A DNA stretch of 64,000 nucleotides from Candidatus Bipolaricaulota bacterium (GTDB lineage: Bacteria > Bipolaricaulota > Bipolaricaulia > Bipolaricaulales > Bipolaricaulaceae): assembly GCA_030550535.1 (NCBI GenBank), contig JAUQPF010000026.1, forward strand, positions 1 to 64,000, written 5' to 3'. Below, in pieces: positions 13,035 to 17,690 of this stretch (positions are counted from its first letter, which is position 1; every line of letters starts with the position of its first letter). Made by a program: the position numbers and the translations under genes. Under the pieces are notes generated by a model. That model saw only the letters and a program-made list of their open reading frames with translations. It did no database searches and was not told where the DNA came from.

Positions 13035-13098
13035 TCCTTTCTCCAAACCCGCCGTTTGGGGTACCATGCACGCACGGTGTTGGCGGGAAGGAGGCGGC

Positions 13099-14049
13099 AT
13101 GGACCAGCGAAAGGTGCAAAAGCTCGTGGAGAAGTACGGAATACCCGGGCGCGACGCCTACGATCTTCCCAGCAGTCCCTTGCGGTTTCCCGACGGCGCC
13201 CACTACCGCATGGAGATCTCCGGGGTGGAGCGGCCTGAGGTACTCGAAGCCGTGGTCGATGAGGCCAAAAAGCGGAACGTCCCTATCCACCGCGTGATCT
13301 CCGTGGTCATGGGCGCAACGCTTCTTACGCGCAGCGAGCTCAAATACTTCGCCCAGATCGCGGCGGAAGCGAAGGTGGAGGTGATCCTCACCCCCGGGCC
13401 CCGTTCCGGCTGGGACACGGGAAGACAACTCCTCACCCCCGAGGGCTCCCTTTCGGGCCTGCGGTTCCGCGGAGCCGACCAAATCCGCCACGTGGTCGCC
13501 GACATCCTGCGCGCGGTGGATCTCGGCTTCCGAGGCTTCCTCGTCCTCGATGAGGGCCTCCTTTGGCTTCTTTCCCAGATGCGCGAGAAGGGGGACCTTC
13601 CCAAGGAAACGGTGTTCAAGGTCTCCATCTTTGCGGGTCATGGCAACCCCGCCGGCGCCAAGGTCCTGGAGATGCTAGGGGCCAACACCTTCAACCCTGT
13701 GGCTGACCTGGACCTTCCGGAGCTCGCCGCGATCCGCCAGGCCGTGAAGATCCCCATGGACCTCCACGTGACCCTGACGGATTCCTTCGGCGGCTTCCAC
13801 CGGCTCTACGATGCGCCGGAGATGGCCAGGGTATGCGCGCCCTGCTATTTCAAATTAGAGCCCGGCCCGGCCTGCGTGGTGGGGCCCGGCGCCCTCTACA
13901 AGCCCTGGGTCCCCGGGAAGACCCTGGCCGACTGGGGTCGGGAGAAGGTGAAGCACGCGGAGATCATTCGGGAACTCGTTTCCGCCACGTTCCCCGAGGC
14001 CGTGCTCTCGGGCTGGGGTCCGGCGGACCTTGCTGTTCCCAAGCCCTAA
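13099..14049 (+). CDS. U32 family peptidase-like TIM-barrel protein
   Basis: 316 residues from the ATG at 13099, which follows GGGAAGGAGGCGGC; an in-frame ATG at 13066 lacks a ribosome site. TACCAT at 13062-13067 may be the -10 box. The sequence resembles proteins annotated as U32-family in actinobacterial and thermophile genomes, with RFPDGAHYRMEI, FLVLDEGLLWLL and NTFNPVADLDLPELAAIRQA. The classical U32 signature with conserved cysteines is not evident, so peptidase activity is uncertain. It starts a three-gene unit with a glutamine-synthetase-like enzyme and an S58 peptidase, pointing to amino acid or peptide metabolism. Confidence 0.55.
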   Translation: MDQRKVQKLVEKYGIPGRDAYDLPSSPLRFPDGAHYRMEISGVERPEVLEAVVDEAKKRNVPIHRVISVVMGATLLTRSELKYFAQIAAEAKVEVILTPGPRSGWDTGRQLLTPEGSLSGLRFRGADQIRHVVADILRAVDLGFRGFLVLDEGLLWLLSQMREKGDLPKETVFKVSIFAGHGNPAGAKVLEMLGANTFNPVADLDLPELAAIRQAVKIPMDLHVTLTDSFGGFHRLYDAPEMARVCAPCYFKLEPGPACVVGPGALYKPWVPGKTLADWGREKVKHAEIIRELVSATFPEAVLSGWGPADLAVPKP

Positions 14050-14064: not shown

Positions 14065-15417
14065 ATGACCTTTGCCGAACTCGTGGCCCTCCTCCAAGAG
14101 GAGGGCGTGCGCTGTGTGGAGCTGCGGGCCGTGGATCTCTGGGGAAGGCTGCGCGGGCTCACGATCCCCGCGGAGTCCTTGACGGAGGAGATGGTCAGGG
14201 AAGGGGTGGGGGTAGACGGTGCCCATTACGGCCTCGCCCAAACCGAGGAAAGCGACTGGGTCATCCTTCCCGACCTGGACGCTGTGTACATGGACCCCTT
14301 GGCTGAGCCGCCAGCGGTTTTGATCCTGTGCGATCTGGGAAGGCCAGGAGAGGGCGCAAGCCCCTTGAGCCCCCGCACCGTGGCCGCCGCGGCCGAGCGG
14401 TTCCTGCGCGACGCGGGCATCGCTCAAGAGGCCAGCTTTTCCGTGGAGCTCGAGTTCTACCTCTTCGACGAGGTCCACGTGGCCGATAACGCCCTGGCCC
14501 AAGGGGTGGAGATCCTGCCCGTGGAGGGCCAGGTGGACCTTTGGGGAAACGCGCTCCCGAGAGCGCGCTCCGCCTACCACGCCACGAGCGTCGCGGACGC
14601 CGGAAAAGCCGTGCGCGACCGCGTCGTAGAGATCCTCACCCGTTGGGGCATCCCCGTGCGCTACCACCACCACGAGACCGGGGGCTTGGGCCAAATGGAG
14701 ATCGAGTTGGGACTGGGCACCCTCAAGGCCGCTGCGGACTGGACAGTGCTCGCCAAGGACCTCATCGCCCGCGTGGCCGCCGAGGAGGGCTTGGTGGCCT
14801 GTTTCCTCCCCAAACCGCTTTATGACCAGCCGGGAAACGGCCTTCACGTGCACCAATGCTTGGTGGGCTCGAAGGGCAACCTTTTTGGCGGCGAGGAGGG
14901 CCTCTCGGAGTTGGGCCTCGCCTACATCGGTGGGCTTTTGGCCCACGGGCGGGCCCTCTCCGCGCTCGTTTCGCCCTCCACCAACTCGTACCGCCGCCTG
15001 CGGCCAGGGTTCGAGGCGCCGGTGGAGCTCTTCTTTGGCCAGGCGGACCGCACCGCGGCCGTGCGCATCCCTGGGTACCTCAAGCCCGAAAAGGTCCGGG
15101 TGGAGTACCGGCCGCCCGATCCCACCTGCAACCCCTATCTGGCCCTTGCGGCCTGCCTCATGGCCGGCATCGACGGGATCCGCCAAGGCATCGATCCCGT
15201 GGCCCGCGGCTGGGGGCCCGGACGCAAAAAGCGCGTCCCTCTTCTCCCGCGGTCCCTGGAGGAGGCCCTGGAAGCCCTGCGGCGGGATCACGACTTCCTC
15301 ACGGTGGGCGGGGTCTTCCCCGAGGAGCTCCTCGAGCTTTGGCTCGAGGGGAAGGCCAAGGAGGCAGAGGAAGTGGCGGCGCGTCCACACCCCTACGAGT
15401 TCAGGCTCTACCCATGA
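14065..15417 (+). CDS. Glutamine synthetase-like enzyme (glnA family, GSI type)
   Basis: 450 residues. Metal-ligand strand SVELEFYLFDE, HHHETGGLGQMEIE, substrate loop NGLHVHQ, SPSTNSYRRL and VEYRPPDPTCNPYLA follow the GSI order. Departures: the ammonium-site DGSS motif reads DGAHYG, NRS(A/C) reads DRTAAVRIP, and no C-terminal adenylylation motif is seen. Catalytic acidic and basic residues remain, so it is likely an ATP-dependent gamma-glutamyl ligase, but glutamate plus ammonia may not be its substrates; a gamma-glutamyl-amine ligase is an alternative. ATG with GGAAAGGAG site. It overlaps the S58 peptidase gene by 4 bp. Confidence 0.8.
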   Translation: MTFAELVALLQEEGVRCVELRAVDLWGRLRGLTIPAESLTEEMVREGVGVDGAHYGLAQTEESDWVILPDLDAVYMDPLAEPPAVLILCDLGRPGEGASPLSPRTVAAAAERFLRDAGIAQEASFSVELEFYLFDEVHVADNALAQGVEILPVEGQVDLWGNALPRARSAYHATSVADAGKAVRDRVVEILTRWGIPVRYHHHETGGLGQMEIELGLGTLKAAADWTVLAKDLIARVAAEEGLVACFLPKPLYDQPGNGLHVHQCLVGSKGNLFGGEEGLSELGLAYIGGLLAHGRALSALVSPSTNSYRRLRPGFEAPVELFFGQADRTAAVRIPGYLKPEKVRVEYRPPDPTCNPYLALAACLMAGIDGIRQGIDPVARGWGPGRKKRVPLLPRSLEEALEALRRDHDFLTVGGVFPEELLELWLEGKAKEAEEVAARPHPYEFRLYP

Positions 15418-16502
15418 ACGCCTTCCGCCGCGCGGGCTTAAGCCTGGGCCGGATTGCGCCCGGGTCGAGGTGCGCCCTCACGGATGTCCCTGGCGTGCGG
15501 GTTGGGCACTGCACCCTCATCAGCGGTGAAGGCGAGAAAGCCATCCGCACCGGGGTCACGGCCATCGTTCCTCCGGGCGATCCCTATGCCGAGCCCTGCG
15601 CCGCCGGGATCTTCGTGCTCCATGGCCATGGAAAAGCTCTGGGCCTCTGGCAAATCCAGGATGTGGGGGAGCTGGAGACCCCCGTCCTCCTCACCAACAC
15701 GCTCGCCGTGTTCGTTTGCGCGGAGGCTTTGCTCACCTGGACGCTGCGGCGCCACCCGGAGGCGCGGTCCATAAACCCCGTGGTCCTGGAGTGCAACGAC
15801 GGCAAGCTCTCCGCGATCGAGCTCCGGCCCGTGCGGGAGGAGCACGCCCTTCAGGCCCTGGAGGAGGCCAAAGACGAGGTGCAGGAGGGTTGTGTGGGCG
15901 CGGGGACGGGCATGATCGCCTTCGGCTACAAATCCGGGATCGGCACGGCCTCTCGCCGCGTGGGCCCGTACATTGTGGGCGCCCTTGCCCTCCCCAACAT
16001 GGGACGCCTCGAGGATTTCCGTCCCCCCTCACCCTCCTCCCTCTCCCCCCAAGGGGGAGAGGGCTGGGGTAAGGGGGTACCCAACCCTTGCTCCCCCCAA
16101 GGGGGTAAGGGCGAGAAGGCCCCCTCTCCCCCCTCACCAGCCCGAGAAGAGGGACCGGGTGAGGGGTCGTTGATCGTGGTTTTGGCCACGGATGCCCCGC
16201 TTCTTCCGGCGCAGCTTGGCCGGTTATGTCGGCGGGCGGCGCTGGGCGCAGCCCGCACCGGCGCCCCCGCCGACACCGGAAGCGGCGACTTCTTCCTCGC
16301 CTTCTCCACCACCCTGCGCTTCCCAAGGGATGCCGAAAAAATTGCCGTGGAACCTATTCCAGATCGTTCGCGCACAATGGGCGAGCTCTACCGGGCCGCA
16401 GCAGAGGCCACCGAAGAAGCCATCTACTCCGCGCTTTTGGCCGCAACCCCGCTCATGGGGCGGGAGGGCCGGAGTCCGCCGGTATTCCGCCTCAGTCGAT
16501 GA
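15414..16502 (+). CDS. S58 family self-processing aminopeptidase (DmpA/P1 type) with repeat-derived insert
   Basis: 362 residues from the ATG at 15414, which overlaps the preceding stop. Features: [50 protein letters not shown] and [18 protein letters not shown], the autocleavage site where the Ser (residue 252) becomes the N-terminal nucleophile. Residues 204-251 are a low-complexity Pro/Ser/Gly/Glu-rich stretch encoded by a 142 bp palindromic element that ends exactly at the nucleophile codon. Family members release N-terminal D- or beta-amino acids or other residues from peptides. No signal peptide. The gene converges with greA and overlaps it by 11 bp. Confidence 0.85.
16025..16166. repeat. 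142 bp MITE-like palindromic element inside the S58 peptidase gene
   Basis: The ends are perfect 10 bp inverted repeats: CCCCTCACCC (16025-16034) and GGGTGAGGGG (16157-16166). Inside are two hairpins with AA loops, CTCTCCCCCCAAGGGGGAGAG (16041-16061, slightly over 20 bases in all) and a similar CCCCCCAAGGGGG copy near 16102-16114. This is the composition of small non-coding palindromic elements that usually sit between genes. Here it is read through in frame and ends at the catalytic Ser codon. No copy elsewhere in the window was noticed. Confidence 0.75.
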
Positions 16503-16737
16503 CGCGCGCCCCGCGCAAGAGGCGCTCAAGCTCCGCAATCCGGCCTTCCACCAAGGCCTGCTCCTCTTTGGCCGCGTGGTACTCGGCGTTCTCCGAGAGG
16601 TCCCCATATTCCCGGGCTCGCCGGATCTTCTCGGCGATCTCCGGCCGCTTGACGCGGATCAGGTAGTCCAGCTCCTTCTTGAGCCGCTCGTAGCCCTCGC
16701 GGGTCAAAACCTTATCCCAGTTGGGTGTGGCGACCAT
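16492..16737 (-). CDS. greA: GreA N-terminal coiled-coil domain only (transcription elongation factor)
   Basis: 81 residues from the ATG at 16737, preceded by GAGGAGGTG. The sequence matches the GreA N-terminal hairpin: [16 protein letters not shown], the acidic tip [16 protein letters not shown], and [16 protein letters not shown], after which full-length GreA (about 158 residues) continues into a FKBP-like domain. Here a TGA follows immediately. The coiled coil carries the transcript-cleavage residues, while the missing domain provides most of the affinity for RNA polymerase. Either a trimmed functional factor or a 3'-truncated remnant; the convergent S58 gene overlaps its end. Confidence 0.85.
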
Positions 16738-16826
16738 GCTTTTCACCTCCTCACGGGCTTTCCCGAGTTTAGTGAGGATTCGTTCCCCCGCAACCGAACC
16801 GGCTACCATTGGAAAAAGGAGGCCCC

Positions 16827-17690
16827 ATGGAGGAGCGCAAGAAGCTCACGATCCCGGACCTTTGGGACATGGTGGCCCGCGGGGAGAAGATCACGTTCCT
16901 CACGGCCTACGACTACCCCACGGCCCTTTTGGAGGACCGGGCGGGCGTGGACATGATCCTAGTGGGGGATTCCGCGGCCATGTGCATGCTCGGCCACAAG
17001 ACCACGCTCCCCGCCACCATGGACTTCATGGTCACCATCACCGCAGCCGTGTCCCGCGCGGTCACCCGCGCGTTCGTCGTGGGCGATATGCCCTATATGT
17101 CCTACCAGCCCTCGGACGAGATCGCCATCAAGAACGCGGGGCGGTTCATCGCCGAGGGCGGGGCGGACGCTGTGAAGCTGGAGGGCGGGGCGCGCGCGGC
17201 CGAGCGGGTGGAGGCCATCGTGCGGGCGGGGATCCCCGTGATGGGGCACATCGGCCTTACGCCTCAAGCGGCGAGCCTCATCGGCGGCCTCAAGGCCCAG
17301 GGCCGCAGCGCCCAAACCGCCAAACAATTGATCGAAGACGCCAAAACCCTGGAAGAGGCGGGAGCCTTCGCCATCCTTCTTGAGGCCATCCCCGCCCGGG
17401 TGGCCGAGCTCATCGTGAAGCGCGCGAAGGTCCCCATCCTCGGCATCGGTTCCGGGCCGGCATGTCATGGGCAACTCCTCATCGTCCACGACATCCTCAG
17501 CCTCTTTGAGGCCTTTACCCCGAAGTTCGTCAAGCGCTATGCCGACGTGGCCAGCGTCATGCGCCAGGCCTTCGAGGCCTACGTGCGGGAGGTCAAGGAG
17601 GGCGTGTTCCCCGGCCCCGAGCACACCTATAAGATCCCCAAGGAGGAGTGGGAAGCCCTTCTTCGGCTTTTGGGTGAAGACGCGGGTTAG
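16827..17690 (+). CDS. panB: 3-methyl-2-oxobutanoate hydroxymethyltransferase (pantothenate synthesis)
   Basis: 287 residues from the ATG at 16827, after AAAAAGGAGG; an in-frame upstream start has no site. Metal motif LVGDSAAM, substrate loop [14 protein letters not shown] and [19 protein letters not shown] are present. The last motif usually reads GPxCDGQ; the His replacing that Asp is a modest deviation. The enzyme adds a hydroxymethyl group from methylene-THF to ketoisovalerate, giving ketopantoate. TACCAT at 16804-16809 could be its -10 box. panC and panD are not in the window. Confidence 0.93.

Follow-up and report, generated by a model that had tools for sequence, protein, structure and literature searches.

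A BoxC/PIT/TM-type palindrome read in frame next to the presumed self-cleavage site of a Candidatus Bipolaricaulota S58 peptidase, and DUF559 as a candidate mobiliser

To our knowledge, there is no accepted account of the spread of BoxC/TM repeats, which have been known since the 1990s. The E. coli TM repeat has been shown to adopt a triplex fold as DNA in vitro (Holder et al. 2015, PMC4666352); according to the same paper, BoxC/PIT/TM copies in E. coli MG1655 are always intergenic, and no link to transposons, phages or plasmids was found there. The Rickettsia palindromic elements (Ogata et al. 2000, 2002) lie in frame in unrelated genes and are tolerated as extra peptide, as described in PMC10969869. 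Here we describe a palindromic stretch in a peptidase S58 gene of a Candidatus Bipolaricaulota bacterium. Its repeat has the arms CCCTCTCCC, GGGAGAGGG and GGGTGAGGG of BoxC/PIT/TM(ECO), the same class II triplex geometry, multiple copies and often inverted pairs, but whereas the MG1655 copies are reported to be intergenic, the S58 copy is coding, in frame and made up of three clustered units. Intergenic location is a trait of the E. coli copies rather than a defining criterion, and it does not hold here, where copies are in frame in S58 and in about a dozen other genes. The tolerated insertion of a palindromic repeat in frame into unrelated coding genes recalls the Rickettsia elements, a likeness of described behaviour with no claim of membership in that family; here, however, the host belongs to the Bipolaricaulota, a single unit measures about 50 bp and theirs about 150 bp, the repeat belongs to the widespread BoxC type, and some sites look more like replacement than addition. 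REP/REPIN sequences with their RAYT genes offer a further parallel, namely short palindromes beside a small dedicated nuclease-type gene (here DUF559) as a possible mobiliser, although the Bipolaricaulota repeat has neither a conserved GTAG/CGTC tag nor a correlation with Y1 transposase. DUF559 has a nuclease fold other than that of RAYT. The S58 stretch is read in frame and is probably selfish DNA of the BoxC/TM type that a permissive loop tolerates, similar to the Rickettsia elements in behaviour and different from them in its repeat.

Architecture and identity of the palindromic stretch

For the host genome there is an incomplete draft assembly of 1.41 Mb, split into 56 contigs and about 92% complete, and nearly all genomes of the Bipolaricaulota group compared with it are draft assemblies as well. 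The window, that is the whole stretch of 64,000 nucleotides analysed here, holds the features listed in the table below. As previously noted from the letters alone, the palindromic stretch is read in frame in an S58 peptidase; its reading frame runs without interruption along the whole length of the gene. Assignment to S58 follows from the PF03576 domain and the conserved Gly-Ser motif, at which self-cleavage is predicted. Solved structures related to the protein are 2drh, 5tzb, 3n2w and 1b65. Gly251 and Ser252 are invariant in an alignment of 28 S58 sequences, codon 252 (TCG, 16167-16169) being the Ser of the Gly-Ser motif, and the palindrome codes for 50 residues between the conserved NMGRxED and this motif. 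An AlphaFold2 model finds the loop unstructured and of low confidence (pLDDT 43-51 for residues 211-250) and starts a beta strand at Ser252. Gene order around S58 is kept in the orthologues of relatives. Two further neighbours were observed: a gene with a GreA-like N-terminal domain (16492-16809, minus strand) is convergent with S58, their 3' ends sharing 11 bases (16492-16502), and a 327-aa open reading frame at 13066-14049 is conserved in relatives (82-94% identical) and has no Pfam match.

Features of the S58 locus, in window coordinates (hairpin limits are approximate and follow the fold)
Feature	Position	Strand	Basis or remark
Glutamine-synthetase family gene, upstream of S58	14065..15417	+	adjoins the orthologue in 9/9 relatives' stretches checked
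Peptidase S58 (DmpA/BapA family) gene, palindrome host	15414..16502	+	PF03576 E 2.1e-95; 362 aa + stop
Whole palindromic stretch, third base of codon 204 to codon 251	16025..16166	.	sequence, fold
Unit 1, complete BoxC/TM palindrome CCCCCTCACCC-CCCTCTCCCCC-GGGGGAGAGGG-GGGTAAGGGGG	16024..16078	.	fold, arm score 37/38, triplex criteria
Class II intrastrand-triplex motif in unit 1, stem 11, loops 3 and 3, one mismatched triad	16039..16077	+
Class II intrastrand-triplex motif in unit 1, stem 11, loops 3 and 4, no mismatch	16024..16063	-
Second hairpin CCCTTGCTCCCCCCAAGGGGGTAAGGG	16085..16111	.	fold, sequence
Third hairpin, more degenerate, CCCCTCACC...GGTGAGGGG	16130..16166	.	fold, sequence
Gly251-Ser252 codons GGG TCG, presumed self-cleavage site	16164..16169	+	sequence; alignment
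Ketopantoate hydroxymethyltransferase gene (panB), downstream of S58	16824..17690	+	near the orthologue in six same-genus relatives and G022

A preliminary description of this DNA had seen a single 142-bp element with terminal inverted repeats. Its coordinates and the perfect 10-bp inverted arms (CCCCTCACCC, 16025-16034; GGGTGAGGGG, 16157-16166) were correct, as were the internal hairpins, two CCCCCC-AA-GGGGG cores being present. The fold, however, divides the stretch into three adjacent hairpins, in which each outer arm is paired within its own unit instead of with the opposite outer arm. A 48-nt register runs through the stretch, the length of which is no multiple of 3. The same description had read meaning into an end exactly before the codon of Ser252. 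Position and residue are right, but the end falls there because the conserved Gly251 codon reads GGG and so matches the terminal G-run of the last arm.

The palindromic structure is above chance, with a minimum free energy (MFE) z of -3.8 against dinucleotide shuffles. Unit 1 is a BoxC/PIT/TM intrastrand-triplex motif, of class II on both strands by the published definition (three stems of 6-15 nt, loops of 1-6 nt, at most one mismatch; PMC4666352). Its nested palindrome agrees with the consensus at 37 of 38 arm bases, and the arms of the repeat, CCCTCACCC together with the three given above, coincide with those of BoxC/PIT/TM in E. coli (PMC4666352). Unit 1 is the only such site in the 64-kb window, where no second triplex motif with a stem of at least 9 was found. 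An Rfam search returned only weak, chance-like matches below the gathering scores. An RNA model (R1) built from 17 units was set aside, its MAFFT alignment being poor and holding only 7 pairs.

The S58 loop in relatives and in-frame copies in other genes

About 48 residues had been thought to be added at this site. The palindrome is missing in most relatives, but they have a loop of their own, mostly non-palindromic and mostly of 22-23 residues versus 50 here, and the net gain is about 27 residues. Conservation of the stretch in S58 homologues was not seen. The view that the site tolerates insertion agrees with the low-confidence loop of the AlphaFold2 model and with the variable loop of the relatives. 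Palindromic loops also occur in G006 and G001 (g1), G012 and G022 (g6) and G030 (g5), scattered over the S58 tree. Unit 1 aligns codon for codon, without indels, with the single unit of G006 (L014), and the S58 loop here thus corresponds to a G006-like loop plus about 27 codons. In the other genera, the palindrome is read in a different codon phase (PPHPGPLP or PPHPLP in G012, G022 and G030 versus PPSP), which argues for at least two independent insertion events. Three neighbour genes reject the grouping of the g1 palindromic loops in one clade (AU p 0.0017), and therefore either losses or repeated insertion at the same site have to be assumed; with the S58 gene alone a single origin is not rejected (AU p 0.23). 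In G006 and G022 the palindromic loop is of native length, as if it had arisen by replacement or trimming and not by insertion alone. The palindrome is weak or decayed at L008, where 37/500 recodings score as high, and at L012, where 261/500 do. As far as these sequences tell, the S58 loop turns over quickly, with neither sequence nor length nor palindrome conserved.

That the palindrome is a repeated and apparently mobile element, as had been supposed, is borne out by copies elsewhere, which we surveyed by pattern matches and in individual genome stretches. The host genome holds nine strict pattern matches in several places and none to a reversed control pattern. Its intergenic copies carry the same arms as the S58 copy, which is the only one among the classified copies of this genome to span a coding frame. 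Four genomes of family f3 (G038, G046, G049 and G052) have 33 to 146 strict copies each, far above the family of the S58 host. Dense palindrome clusters over 20-75 kb were seen at L114 (G021:C1:13-33k) and L129-L131 (G026:C1:417-492k), far above the rest of those genomes.

Both the known repeat type (BoxC/PIT/TM) and the in-frame copies in many genes of the family had been overlooked. The family survey covered 98 copy clusters; in 20 of them an open frame continues across the cluster and the flanks are coding in that frame, a count that derives from a simple codon model. Eighteen of these 20 are in gene families recognised by Pfam; no family was recognised for the spanning reading frames L117 and L143, which may be spurious. 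Hosts of in-frame copies are S58 (three genomes), HsdM (three copies in one gene), HsdS, Eco57I-type methylases, TruD, a DUF1156 gene, MobA-like transferases (two genomes) and the copper P-type ATPase CopA. At the CopA site, G012 has LTPSPLPGAGEG where the 88% identical, insert-free G022 has VDGVDEK, a replacement with a net gain of five residues. No target duplication was apparent around the S58 copy or in the CopA comparison, in which one near-empty site was compared at the DNA level. The two copies in TruD of G005 occupy a segment of which its relatives have a short version. The MobA-like transferases of G022 (L155) and G012 (L163) hold an identical in-frame insert, QALFPPHPGPLPQGGEGGGRWRI, which was therefore apparently inherited across species.

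Explanations for the S58 stretch

We consider it likely that copies of a BoxC/PIT/TM-type palindrome entered the S58 loop and persist there as tolerated selfish DNA. Such palindromes would have entered the segment directly upstream of the self-cleavage site and could have persisted because, of the three frames in which the palindrome can be read, two are free of the GGG-TGA-GGG stop. The stop-free frames would encode a disordered Pro/Ser/Gly/Glu-rich peptide in a permissive loop. In the Bipolaricaulota species studied here the cluster would have expanded until it comprised three hairpins, so that the end of the chain from which the C-terminus of the alpha subunit is predicted to form became longer by about 27 residues, and the repeat would enter other genes in frame as well, sometimes in place of a native loop stretch. 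We infer that the palindrome is tolerated without functional effect, that self-processing is intact and that the palindrome is mobilised.

The preliminary description had instead called the element domesticated; the insert would then have been recruited to tune self-cleavage or to serve as a functional C-terminal tail of the alpha chain. Although the insert adjoins the cleavage bond and palindromic loops recur at the S58 site in several lineages, most relatives are without it, none of the loop's sequence, length and palindrome is conserved, the loop turns over quickly, and the same repeat is found in other genes of unrelated function. There is no sign of selection for the insert, and we regard its domestication as unlikely. 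Less credible still is a Pro/Gly/Ser-rich linker in which GC-rich codons are palindromic by chance and no mobile element is involved. C- and G-runs are favoured by the GC-rich genome and by codon choice, and compared with synonymous recodings the MFE of the stretch is only modestly unusual (z -1.5, 28/500); on the other hand, none of 500 synonymous-codon recodings of the same peptide under family codon usage reaches its arm score, the triplex motif lies on both strands and is unique in 64 kb, and intergenic copies in the genome carry the same arms. We give equally little credence to an artefact of assembly or binning at the hairpin. An incomplete draft in 56 contigs and the difficulty of assembling hairpins would make room for such an error, but the frame stays open, the order of the neighbouring genes is intact, and independent assemblies of relatives have palindromes in the same loop.

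A fourth explanation, slightly less plausible than domestication, accepts a mobile element and assigns it to the REP/REPIN type, moved by a RAYT (Y1/TnpA-REP) transposase. The palindromes are indeed short, clustered and in opposite orientations, and Y1_Tnp genes occur in 19 of the 40 genomes searched. However, Y1_Tnp was not found in the host genome (G000, about 92% complete) or in the copy-rich G038, G046 and G049, the presence of Y1 transposase is uncorrelated with copy number (p 0.53), and no conserved GTAG or CGTC tag stands beside the copies inspected; a CGTC at 16020-16023 is due to coding (Phe-Arg-Pro) and is missing beside the other own-genome copies read. Tolerated copies of a BoxC/PIT/TM-type palindrome remain the explanation that we favour.

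DUF559 genes and the question of mobilisation

For these BoxC/PIT/TM-type palindromes, the most likely mobiliser would be the DUF559 Vsr-like nuclease, the genes of which are themselves flanked by palindromes. Within 150 bp, C-rich palindromes were found on both sides of 14 of 26 DUF559 genes and on at least one side of 23, in a sample of Bipolaricaulota and plasmid-collection records of which the plasmid cases were picked by similarity to a flanked DUF559. For control genes the figures are 0/103 and 4/103, and at random positions at most 0.14% and at most 2.5%, respectively. Hosts of the plasmid records are E. coli, Azospirillum, Deinococcus, rhizobia, Sphingomonas, Photobacterium, Synechocystis and Methylobacterium, and the flanking palindromes comprise several related sequences, not all of them BoxC. 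Copy number is higher in genomes with a full-length DUF559 (p 4e-5 over 60 genomes, uncorrected for phylogeny). DUF559 was not found in the host genome, the assembly of which is about 92% complete, and the link to a mobiliser therefore rests on relatives. Flanked loci of this Vsr-like nuclease were seen in several phyla (L173-L180, L186, L187, L227, L239 and L241-L253). At L120:349-2652 (G028), a DUF559 domain bounded by two palindromes is encoded together with a GIY-YIG nuclease domain, without a frame break, in one hsdM reading frame. In G061 (L227), DUF559 likewise lies in an open frame between palindromes.

The DUF559 gene of E. coli is ycjD, matched in 3366 of 5426 genomes. In E. coli EC21Z-078 (L260:628-1190), ycjD lies between sapF and fabI; in this one genome a TM/BoxC copy is found about 170 bp downstream of ycjD and another palindrome at its 3' end. 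A literature search covering few subscription journals found no paper tying DUF559 or ycjD to palindromes. The flanking of DUF559 genes by palindromes in several phyla points to a mobiliser, suggesting a role that we can so far assign to DUF559 only tentatively. It is quite possible, if short of probable, that BoxC/TM palindromes represent the non-autonomous form of a mobile system that is widespread and has DUF559 (Vsr-like) as its mobiliser. Palindrome-DUF559-palindrome units in several phyla, including ycjD beside TM in E. coli, would belong to this system, which in Bipolaricaulota would also enter coding genes in frame, as in the S58 loop.

To conclude, protein-coding BoxC/TM copies in many genes of one lineage indicate movement of this repeat and show which inserts proteins can tolerate outside Rickettsia as well. 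The wider lead is the association of DUF559 with palindromes which, if true, provides a concrete candidate mobiliser for BoxC/TM, testable in E. coli K-12.
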